A stretch of DNA of 32,494 nucleotides, taken from the IMG/VR virus record IMGVR_UViG_3300014933_000167, positions 1 through 32,494 of that record; one strand, written 5' to 3'. Both the position numbers and the translations under genes were made by a program. The notes beneath the pieces were generated by a model. It was not told the origin of the DNA. It saw only the letters and a list, made by a program, of their open reading frames with translations, and searched no databases. The stretch is from a virus. Below, in pieces: positions 1,974-4,656 of the stretch (its first letter is position 1; each line of letters starts with the position of its first letter).

Positions 1974-2651
1974 ATGAATACAACAACCACAGAAACCAGT
2001 CAACTAAATGCTTCATTTGTTAAAGCTTTAGGAGAGCTTAAAAATGTCGCCAAGAATGCAGTCAACCCGCACTTTAGGAACCGATACGCATCTCTGGATG
2101 CCATTCTGGACGATGTTCGTCCTGTCCTAGCGTCTCATAACCTAGCAATTAGCCAAGAACCTCTCTTTGAGGATGGAAAGGCTGGAGTAGTAACCCGAAT
2201 TATCCATGCATCAGGTGGAGTTCGGGAGTCAACCCTTCTCTTGCCACTAAAAGATCAGACTGCACAGGGAGTAGGGTCAGCTTTGACCTATGCAAAGCGT
2301 TATGCCATCAGTTCAATCCTTGGAATCACCGCCGACGATGATGATGATGGAGAGATCGCCAGCAAGCCGATAGCTCAAAAGCCCACCATCAAGGCTGAAC
2401 CACCAAAAGCGAAGCAGGAGACGACTCCAGAGGTTCCAAAAGAGCTTCCTAGCGACCCCCTTACAATGCTGTCCAGCATGATGTGGAGTGATTCAATTAA
2501 AGATGCCCATGTAATTGAATTTCTGATTGCAAACAAGGCGATCACGAATCGTGATGTCACTCTTTCAAAGATTAATGAGACTAACCCCAAACTGATTGAG
2601 CGTCTTGTTTCAGCATGGGACAAGGTTAAGGCATTCAAACCAGCACTATAA
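1974..2651 (+). CDS. erf: ERF-family single-strand annealing recombinase
   Basis: Residues about 10-125 match the ERF superfamily of phage single-strand DNA annealing proteins. Visible landmarks are NPHFRNRYASLDAILDDVRP near the N-terminus, then a QGVGSALTYAKRYA segment followed by the acidic run ADDDDDGE. ERF proteins promote annealing of complementary strands during phage recombination and genome circularisation. The middle (about 130-165) is Lys/Pro/Glu-rich linker and the C-terminus is helical. The 225-residue length is normal for the family. Its stop overlaps a duplicated start of the next nuclease gene, and a nuclease and an SSB-like gene follow, as expected for a recombination module. 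Confidence 0.88.
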   Translation: MNTTTTETSQLNASFVKALGELKNVAKNAVNPHFRNRYASLDAILDDVRPVLASHNLAISQEPLFEDGKAGVVTRIIHASGGVRESTLLLPLKDQTAQGVGSALTYAKRYAISSILGITADDDDDGEIASKPIAQKPTIKAEPPKAKQETTPEVPKELPSDPLTMLSSMMWSDSIKDAHVIEFLIANKAITNRDVTLSKINETNPKLIERLVSAWDKVKAFKPAL

Positions 2652-2653
2652 TG

Positions 2654-2677
2654 GACGAACGCAATGGAAAACCATCA
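2654..2677 (+). repeat. Left copy of a 24-bp direct repeat (duplicated nuclease start)
   Basis: The sequence GACGAACGCAATGGAAAACC plus ATCA recurs at 3052-3075 with a single mismatch. With the ATG at 2651 it encodes MDERNGKPS followed by two residues and a stop, an abortive version of the N-terminus of the nuclease gene at 3046. The ATG overlaps the ERF stop. Confidence 0.75.
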
Positions 2678-2682
2678 ACTGA

Positions 2683-2976
2683 ATGATTAAAAATATAACT
2701 CATCAAGAATTGATTTCAATTTTGATGCAAATCCATGACGAACTTCCTTCAAGGTTTTTACAGCATTGGATGAGAGTAACCATAAATAAACTTAATTCTT
2801 ACGAAGAAGCCTCAAATAACGCAAAAAAAGAATTGGGTTTTTACAAATCTTCTTTTGAAGCAATTCAAAAAAACAAAAAAACATCAGCAAAATGGAGCAG
2901 AGAAACGCACGGAATTTTTTTCATAAAGAAATTTCTTTCATTCTGTAAAAAGAATCTGAAAACTATATTGAATTAG
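2683..2976 (+). CDS. Hypothetical protein in the insert between ERF and nuclease, 97 aa
   Basis: This helical protein is rich in Lys and Asn, with an A/T-rich base composition. It lies wholly inside the 398-bp interval between two copies of the nuclease start. Its C-terminus (about residue 70 on) looks less natural than the N-terminal part. Another frame just downstream reads as a coiled-coil tail (ENYIELEKKADYYKQLSEKL) after a stop at 2946-2948, so a frameshift may have split an originally longer gene. No family is recognised. Confidence 0.45.
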   Translation: MIKNITHQELISILMQIHDELPSRFLQHWMRVTINKLNSYEEASNNAKKELGFYKSSFEAIQKNKKTSAKWSRETHGIFFIKKFLSFCKKNLKTILN

Positions 2977-3045
2977 AAAAAAAAGCAGATTACTACAAGC
3001 AACTTTCTGAAAAACTTTCTAACGAACTAAAAATTACGCAAAAAA

Positions 3046-4107
3046 ATGACTGACGAACGCAACGGAAAACCATCAGCAAGCGGATTCTCCCGCCTTGCCC
3101 TTTGTCCGGGATCTTGGAATCTTGAGCAAACACTTCCTGATCAGGTAGAGAACAAGTACATGGCACTAGGAACAGCAATTCATGCCGTCCTAGCTGGAGA
3201 AGCTGAATATGATACTCTATCAGAGGATGGAAAGGAGATCGCCACACGATGCCTATCCCAATTCTCCGAGATGATCGGTCAACTTGATCTAGGAGAAAGA
3301 ACCAAGGAGGTAATCGAAGAGAGATTCTGGTATGATGATCTCTTCTCTGGAGCCATTGATCGTATCGACTTCTTTGGAGATGATACAGCAGTTGTTACAG
3401 ACTACAAAACAGGTCGTGTAGCACAATCCCATGCCACAGAAAACTATCAGTTAAGGGCATATGCAGTTTTAGTTAAAAGGGCTTATCCTGATCTCAAGAC
3501 TATTTATGTTGCTATCATTCAGCCTATGGCAAGTGGCAAGACCATTGCGGAATATAACGAGACTGACCTTGCCGCCGCCGAAGACGAAATCGTTGGCATT
3601 GTTCGTGCTTCACAAAGGGATGATGCTCCAAGAATTCCTTCTCCAGACGCTTGTAAATGGTGCCGTGCTAAAAGCATATGTCCAGAAATTCGTGGAACTC
3701 ATAAGGAGCTAGAGGTAGTTTCCTCCGCTATTGTTCCTAGACTTTCCAATGATGAGATTTTGGCAATCGACGAAAAGGCAGAAGTTGTTCTTGATTTTAT
3801 TGATGAAATCAGGAAGGAAATGAAAGCCAGAATGATCGCAGGACAAGAATTTGCTGGACGATCACTAACCGAAGGACGTAAAACAAGAAGTATCCATGAT
3901 ACAACCTCCGTTATTAGTGCGCTTTCTGGTATTGTTGAACAATCTGACATTCTTGCTTGCACAAAAATATCTGTTACTTCACTTGAAAAAGCATACGCAA
4001 AGGCAAAAAACCTTAAAGGAAGTGATGCAAAAGAGAAATTTGAAGAATCACTTGGATGGCTTATCGAAACAAAAATTAGTGAGCCTTCCATATCCAGAAC
4101 TAAATGA
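3046..4107 (+). CDS. Cas4/RecB-like PD-(D/E)XK nuclease (DUF2800-type)
   Basis: The 353-residue product has the RecB-family nuclease landmarks in order. GTAIHAV includes His46, then SGAIDRIDFF carries an acidic residue, DYKTG has Asp119 and Lys121, and YQLRAYAV follows. A Cys20 in LALCPGSW and the cluster CKWCRAKSIC (Cys203, 206, 212) resemble the four-Cys iron-sulfur site of Cas4/AddB-type nucleases. Phage members (DUF2800) are thought to resect DNA ends for single-strand annealing recombination, which fits the ERF gene upstream. The start follows an AAAAAA leader and overlaps the stop of a short upstream frame. Confidence 0.85.
   Translation: MTDERNGKPSASGFSRLALCPGSWNLEQTLPDQVENKYMALGTAIHAVLAGEAEYDTLSEDGKEIATRCLSQFSEMIGQLDLGERTKEVIEERFWYDDLFSGAIDRIDFFGDDTAVVTDYKTGRVAQSHATENYQLRAYAVLVKRAYPDLKTIYVAIIQPMASGKTIAEYNETDLAAAEDEIVGIVRASQRDDAPRIPSPDACKWCRAKSICPEIRGTHKELEVVSSAIVPRLSNDEILAIDEKAEVVLDFIDEIRKEMKARMIAGQEFAGRSLTEGRKTRSIHDTTSVISALSGIVEQSDILACTKISVTSLEKAYAKAKNLKGSDAKEKFEESLGWLIETKISEPSISRTK
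3052..3075 (+). repeat. Right copy of a 24-bp direct repeat (functional nuclease start)
   Basis: It matches 2654-2677 at 23 of 24 positions and encodes residues 3-10 of the nuclease (DERNGKPS). The copies flank the ORF at 2683-2976, consistent with an insertion or tandem duplication that displaced the original ERF-nuclease junction. Confidence 0.75.
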
Positions 4108-4300: not shown

Positions 4301-4320
4301 AAAAACAAAAAAACAAAAAA

Positions 4321-4656
4321 ATGATATCTGGAAAAATCGACGTAACGAAAATTGATAAGAATGAACTATACCAAGGCAAAGTTGCCAAGTATTTGGACAT
4401 TGTCCTTTATGCAAATACAGACGAAGCGGGAAATGAGTGTCCTGATAGGTTTGGCAATGATGGAGTAATCAAGCAATGCGTTTCAAAGGAAAGCAAGGCA
4501 GCAGGAAAGAAACAAATCATTCTTGGAAATTACAAGGTTAAGACTCAAGGATCAGGTTCAAGTTTTGTTGATAAGGTTAAGCCAGCACCAGCTTTTCAAA
4601 ATCGACCAAAACCATCACCAGAACCTATTGATAATAACGACGATATTCCTTTTTAA
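4321..4656 (+). CDS. ssb: Single-stranded DNA-binding-like protein
   Basis: The 111-residue protein ends in NNDDIPF, the acidic tip used by bacterial SSB proteins to recruit partner proteins. A Pro-rich flexible linker precedes it (about residues 80-104). The N-terminal part (LYQGKVAKYLDIVLYANTDE and following) fits an OB-fold-like beta-strand domain but is shorter than classical SSB. It probably coats single-stranded DNA for the ERF protein and the replication genes downstream. The leader is an unusual A-tract (A7-C-A7-C-A7) with no SD. The N-terminal assignment is inferred; the tail is directly seen. Confidence 0.75.
   Translation: MISGKIDVTKIDKNELYQGKVAKYLDIVLYANTDEAGNECPDRFGNDGVIKQCVSKESKAAGKKQIILGNYKVKTQGSGSSFVDKVKPAPAFQNRPKPSPEPIDNNDDIPF

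Follow-up and report, generated by a model that had tools for sequence, protein, structure and literature searches.

In this family of uncultured phages, the boundary between the annealase gene and the nuclease gene is probably a gene-exchange slot, in which cassettes are swapped by inter-phage recombination at shared flanks and stubs of the nuclease start are left as scars of the joins. We put the probability of this reading at roughly 80%. The boundary occurs in empty and occupied states, the cassette families searched for are specific to it, stubs are present in three contigs, and stub and living nuclease start mismatch in their 5' contexts.

The window, i.e., the whole stretch of DNA analysed, is a virus record of 32,494 bases. 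Its relevant features are listed in Table 1; loci of relatives are designated by L numbers and cassette families by letters. The ERF stop codon is at 2649-2651 and the nuclease ATG at 3046. The gene downstream of the nuclease, which has no Pfam match, is likely to encode an SSB-like protein, as its C-terminus is DDIPF. No DNA match was found among isolated phages, and no relative of the nuclease was found among bacterial genomes. By nuclease, the top-listed isolated phage is an Akkermansia phage (L148, CP084202.1) with 28% identity, and the host of that phage hints at a Verrucomicrobiota host for the phage family.

Table 1. Features around the annealase-nuclease boundary of the window.
Feature	Position	Strand	Evidence
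ERF-family single-strand annealing protein of 225 aa, bordering the slot on the left	1974..2651	+	PF04404, E 1.8e-26; phrog_2324 "Erf-like ssDNA annealing protein", 5e-42
11-codon stub MDERNGKPSTE*, probable scar of an old nuclease start	2651..2686	+	23/24 repeat; TAATGGACGAGCG coupling as in L003 and L028
24-nt repeat, upstream copy	2654..2677	+	Repeat comparison
Cargo gene, cassette family A, apparently cut to 97 codons by a one-base deletion	2683..2976	+	Relatives in the same slot of L013, L015 and L039; dN/dS 0.20-0.28 vs L015 and L039
Out-of-frame remainder of the cargo gene, ESENYIELEKK...KITQKND*	2952..3053	+	Alignment to the intact L039 copy
PD-(D/E)XK exonuclease (DUF2800/PDDEXK_1) of 353 aa, bordering the slot on the right	3046..4107	+	PF10926, 1.6e-32; PF12705, 1.9e-21; phrog_69 exonuclease, 2e-47
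24-nt repeat, downstream copy, functional nuclease start	3052..3075	+	Repeat comparison
Putative SSB-like protein, marker of the control boundary	4321..4656	+	Acidic ...DDIPF C-terminus; spacing kept in relatives

Empty and occupied states of the boundary

Scanning IMG/VR with the nuclease yielded 36 relatives, and more were added by two further scans, one alignment-based and one for a motif. The set compared here consists of 34 distinct annealase-nuclease junctions. Nine of them are empty, with the two genes overlapping at TAATG (L003, L017, and L028) or separated by one base between stop and start (L018, L024-26, L069, and L081). The remaining 25/34 are occupied by small-ORF cassettes of about 18 families and 67-866 bp, with a membrane-like peptide of 21 codons as the smallest cargo and a protein of 153 aa as the largest. 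Many cassettes overlap the start and stop codons of the neighbouring genes and thus look co-translated; their expression is probably coupled to that of the neighbours. This comparison of related phages had been proposed in an earlier sequence-only reading of the window, which held that ERF was once directly coupled to the nuclease and that the segment between them is an insert. Both points are borne out by the nine empty relatives, two of which (L003 and L028) share the TAATGGACGA overlap seen at the window stub.

The distance from the nuclease to the SSB-like gene served as a control boundary. It is 191-241 bp in 31/33 loci, which indicates that the variability is concentrated at the annealase-nuclease boundary. 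The exceptions are L017 (650 bp) and L067 (775 bp), where the enlarged boundary suggests that a second, rarer insertion site may exist.

The contents of the slot turn over among close relatives. The nuclease DNAs of L073, L075, L081, and L082 are ~94-97% identical (pairs compared with L075 or L082). L073 carries D, L075 carries P and C, L081 is empty, and L082 carries O, a scar, and B. Three different contents are likewise observed in L007, L008, and L016, whose nucleases are nearly identical. On the nuclease tree of 34 rows, 22 changes of cassette state are required.

When 2.9 M IMG/VR viral contigs were searched at a sensitivity for close relatives, this slot was the only site of families A, C, and F; the search for other insertion sites of the segment, which the sequence-only reading had suggested, gave none for cargo A. 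In the compared loci, which mostly reach 4-5 kb either side of the slot, and in the whole 32-kb window, searches that detect close relatives only gave no match outside the slot for 16 cassette queries. Family searches recognised no transposase, homing nuclease, or other recombinase in the cassettes.

Two cargoes were noted in passing. In L082 (3478-3702) the slot carries a 74-aa sigma-70 region 4 protein (PF04545, E 2e-13). The smallest cargo seen is a 67-bp cassette in L029 (4928-4994) and L067 (3934-4000), which encodes a hydrophobic peptide of ~21 residues (MELIATATIAITALVQFYLITKK-like).

Nuclease-start stubs at the joints

The direct repeat in the window is as the sequence-only reading had located it, with 23/24 identical positions and a spacing of 398 bp. 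The window insert and 25 other inserts were shuffled under a dinucleotide model, and the best match to any nuclease start was recorded. The shuffles reach at most 19/24 over all inserts, and 17/24 for the window's own insert, so the 23/24 repeat is not due to chance. The upstream ORF stops two codons after the repeated stretch, as had been described (T, E, stop). It overlaps its neighbours at both ends: its ATG at 2651 shares TAATG with the ERF stop, and its own stop shares ATGA with the start of the 97-codon ORF. Because L003 and L028 share its TAATGGACGAGCG coupling, the stub is interpreted as the remnant nuclease start of an empty, directly coupled ancestor. The 5' contexts of stub and living start differ in the window (MDER vs MTDER). 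The possibility raised earlier that the repeat is a common N-terminal coding motif holds for the nuclease family; the upstream copy is a dead stub of that motif and not a separate gene.

Significant internal nuclease starts are present in only three inserts, those of the window, L082, and L039, and each of these scars comes from one assembled contig. In L082, the stub lies between the sigma-like gene and the B cassette and reads ATGACTGATGAGCGAAACGGAAAACCTTCA and then CTCTAACATGACTC. The sequence ATGACTGATGAGCGAAACGGAAAACCTTCA matches the nuclease start of the near-identical sister L075 at 29/30 positions but not L082's own start; the stub has MTDER and the living start MENER. The stub continues into CTC-TAA-C-ATG, that is, an annealase-type last codon, a stop, and the cassette start. 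An arrangement like the right half of this joint is observed in L032, where the B cassette directly follows the annealase. In L039, the stub comes after cargo A and leads into an annealase end, TTCAAACCAATCCTTTGATATGA, which matches that of L081 at 27/30 positions by eye and 18/21 as computed. The joint passes through the 11-nt GAAAGCCTTCA, which is found in both the annealase end and the nuclease start of L081.

A candidate sequence shared by the two parents at the joint is 11 nt long in the L039 type (seen in L081) and 6-9 nt long, at K-P codons, in L082 and the window. Over the 34 loci, annealase ends and nuclease starts show no enrichment of microhomology (mean longest match 6.0 nt vs 5.3 nt in controls). 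It was therefore rejected as a general driver and is retained for single cases only. In the window, stub and cargo ATG are separated by five bases, ACTGA, which differ from what a clean annealase end would give (ATCTA in L013, CTCTAAT in L015), and the right-hand partner is not identifiable from them. An exact fusion of nuclease start and annealase end was rejected for the window stub on the same mismatch, although the register fits. A candidate fourth stub, ATGAGCAACGAACGCAAAG at a cassette boundary of L022 (about 4315-4345), matches at 16/24, within the shuffle range, and is not counted. This possible degenerate nuclease start forms the N-terminus of a cassette gene, MSNERKETT....

Cassettes other than those of family B travel with the first codons of the nuclease. 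When family B is left out, an exclusion chosen after seeing the data, 9/10 same-family cassette pairs share the nuclease-start type against 2.2 expected; with family B the test is weaker (9/20 pairs, p 0.009).

Probable cassette exchange and its alternatives

The exchange probably proceeds as follows. Small, translationally coupled cassettes would be replaced by recombination between related phages, the flanks being conserved ends of the two bordering genes, 3' for the annealase and 5' for the nuclease. The majority of exchanges would be clean, but some would be misaligned, joining the nuclease start of one parent to the annealase end or cassette start of the other. The cassette of the right parent would then lie behind the content of the left parent, with a nuclease-start stub at the joint, so that ERF-X-nuclease and ERF-Y-nuclease would yield ERF-X-stub-Y-nuclease. 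The stubs of L082 and L039, both joined to the end of an annealase gene, conform to this expectation. For the window, X would be empty and Y would be cargo A: the left parent would have had an empty junction, ERF-TAATG-GACGAACGC..., and the right parent cargo A with its own nuclease start (MTDER...). The resulting mini-ORF would still tie ERF termination to cargo initiation.

The sequence-only reading had offered two origins for the repeat: a recombination scar, which is retained here, and a target duplicated by a small mobile unit, which is given up. A unit inserted 24 bp inside the nuclease start, duplicating its target, would explain why the insert is flanked by a near-perfect 24-bp direct repeat. 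Against this, 24 bp is long for a target duplication, L013, L014, L034, and L015 hold cargo A in the slot without the left repeat, and searches for close relatives gave no other IMG/VR sites for families A, C, and F. The inserts are unlike one another in sequence and in length, family searches of the cassettes recognised no recombinase, and the L082 stub matches the nuclease start of another lineage rather than its own. Target-site duplication was rejected on the slot specificity and the repeat-free copies, which together favour inter-phage recombination at shared flanks over a mobile element; we regard the mobile unit as very improbable. Relatives that all carry the same gene without any repeat had been named as evidence against an insertion; this holds only among the relatives with this gene, and most relatives carry other genes or none.

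The order of stub, cargo, and nuclease would also result if, in a single genome, the ERF-nuclease region had been duplicated in tandem and a deletion inside it had then left the stub. The 5' contexts of stub and living start, however, differ in the window and in L082, and each context has its match in a different lineage or cassette. This difference indicates two parents and makes the duplication improbable, if somewhat less so than a mobile unit. It is also conceivable that the stub is a selected leader peptide that couples ERF termination to cargo translation, with its origin being secondary. The overlaps TAATG and ATGA are intact at the two ends of the window stub, and the L082 stub likewise begins in an overlap with the preceding stop codon, while a single base separates its end from the ATG that follows. 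Yet no stub lies left of the cargo in most occupied junctions, three of those with cargo A among them, and on the three stubs known we regard a leader role as very improbable.

Among known systems, gene 68 of the mycobacteriophage Island3 is a close precedent. This small orphan gene is absent in the near-identical Brujita, and at its border lies a copy, ~60 bp long, of a neighbouring gene's end. Pope et al. (2011, PMC3029335) attributed this to recombination at short shared sequences. Here too, part of a neighbouring gene is duplicated at one insert border and is single-copy in relatives without the insert. The Island3 repeat copies the end of a gene and lies on the 3' side, in one phage pair, whereas the present one copies the start of a gene and lies on the 5' side. 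The event is of the same kind, but in a slot with many states, comprising about 18 cassette families and nine empty cases. A moron is an additional gene inserted where relatives have two neighbouring genes side by side (Juhala et al. 2000, as described in PMC3029335), and the slot cassettes also sit between genes that are contiguous in the nine empty relatives. Morons further have a promoter and a terminator of their own, whereas the slot cassettes overlap the start and stop codons of their neighbours. In a consensus scan, to which other promoter types are invisible, the window insert has no terminator-like site on the plus strand and only two promoter-like sites, both on the minus strand, against 5.1 expected by chance. 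Transposable elements place the same element at unrelated sites with a duplication at each insertion, whereas A, C, and F were found in the slot only, in IMG/VR searches for close relatives, and the duplication is absent for cargo A in L013 and L015. Thus, the window insert is neither a classical moron nor a transposon.

The slot is a well-resolved variant of known phage mosaicism. The joints of such mosaics are usually too old to read, but here steps of gene gain can be read directly, owing to near-identical phages with empty, single, and multiple fillings and to the three stubs. Lambda Red, an annealase with an exonuclease, recombines diverged sequences at high efficiency and is a source of mosaicism (Martinsohn et al. 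2008, PMC2327257). The genes on either side of the slot encode a pair of this kind, and it is plausible that the phage's own annealase and exonuclease perform the joining, although general microhomology is not enriched. A more speculative extension, which we consider rather doubtful, is that the operon is a self-serving site of gene capture, whose enzymes recombine their own gene ends and whose arrays grow unit by unit, a readable stub marking the joint and its direction. If this is true, the slot is the most exchangeable point of the early region. The slot also provides a bounded set of small, fast-changing genes of the recombination operon, which can be screened for counter-defence or accessory recombination roles.

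The cargo gene and the annealase C-terminus

Family A cargo is also present in L013, L014, L034, L015, and L039, with 59-88% protein identity over the aligned part. It occupies the same slot in three further lineages without a left stub, and in L013 and L015 it lies flush against the annealase stop. The suspicion that the coiled-coil tail in the window is frameshifted is supported by the 88% identical copy in L039, which has one extra C (GTAAAAACGAATC vs GTAAAAA-GAATC in the window). In this copy the frame stays open, giving a 123-aa protein whose end, ...TQKND*, corresponds to the out-of-frame tail of the window. One base thus appears to have been lost at 2951/2952 of the window, although the missing base may be a base-calling or assembly error. 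The stop of the out-of-frame remainder falls within the nuclease start. The forms in L013 and L015 are shorter and are without the coiled tail of ~28 residues.

The dN/dS values of cargo A, 0.28 against L039 and 0.20 against L015, indicate purifying selection. Family searches gave sub-threshold matches only (Ebp2, 0.003; phrog_21710, 0.03), and the structure model, built from four sequences, is helical with low confidence (mean pLDDT 69). Small genes adjoin erf in P22 and bet in lambda. By this analogy, our tentative best guess is that the cargo could be an accessory recombination or counter-nuclease protein.

The annealase itself shows swapped cores, which are RecT-like in L004, L013, L018, and L073 and Erf-like in the window and L024. 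Across the core types, homology is retained in the C-terminal ~95 residues (2349-2648 in the window), which end in W-D-x-V-K-x-F-K-P-x-L. A helical domain of ~60 residues is predicted in this tail, and a fold search with it gave no PDB match. The conservation fits a domain that contacts a constant partner, the nuclease or the SSB. C-terminal domains common to different annealase families have been reported (PMC8093625).
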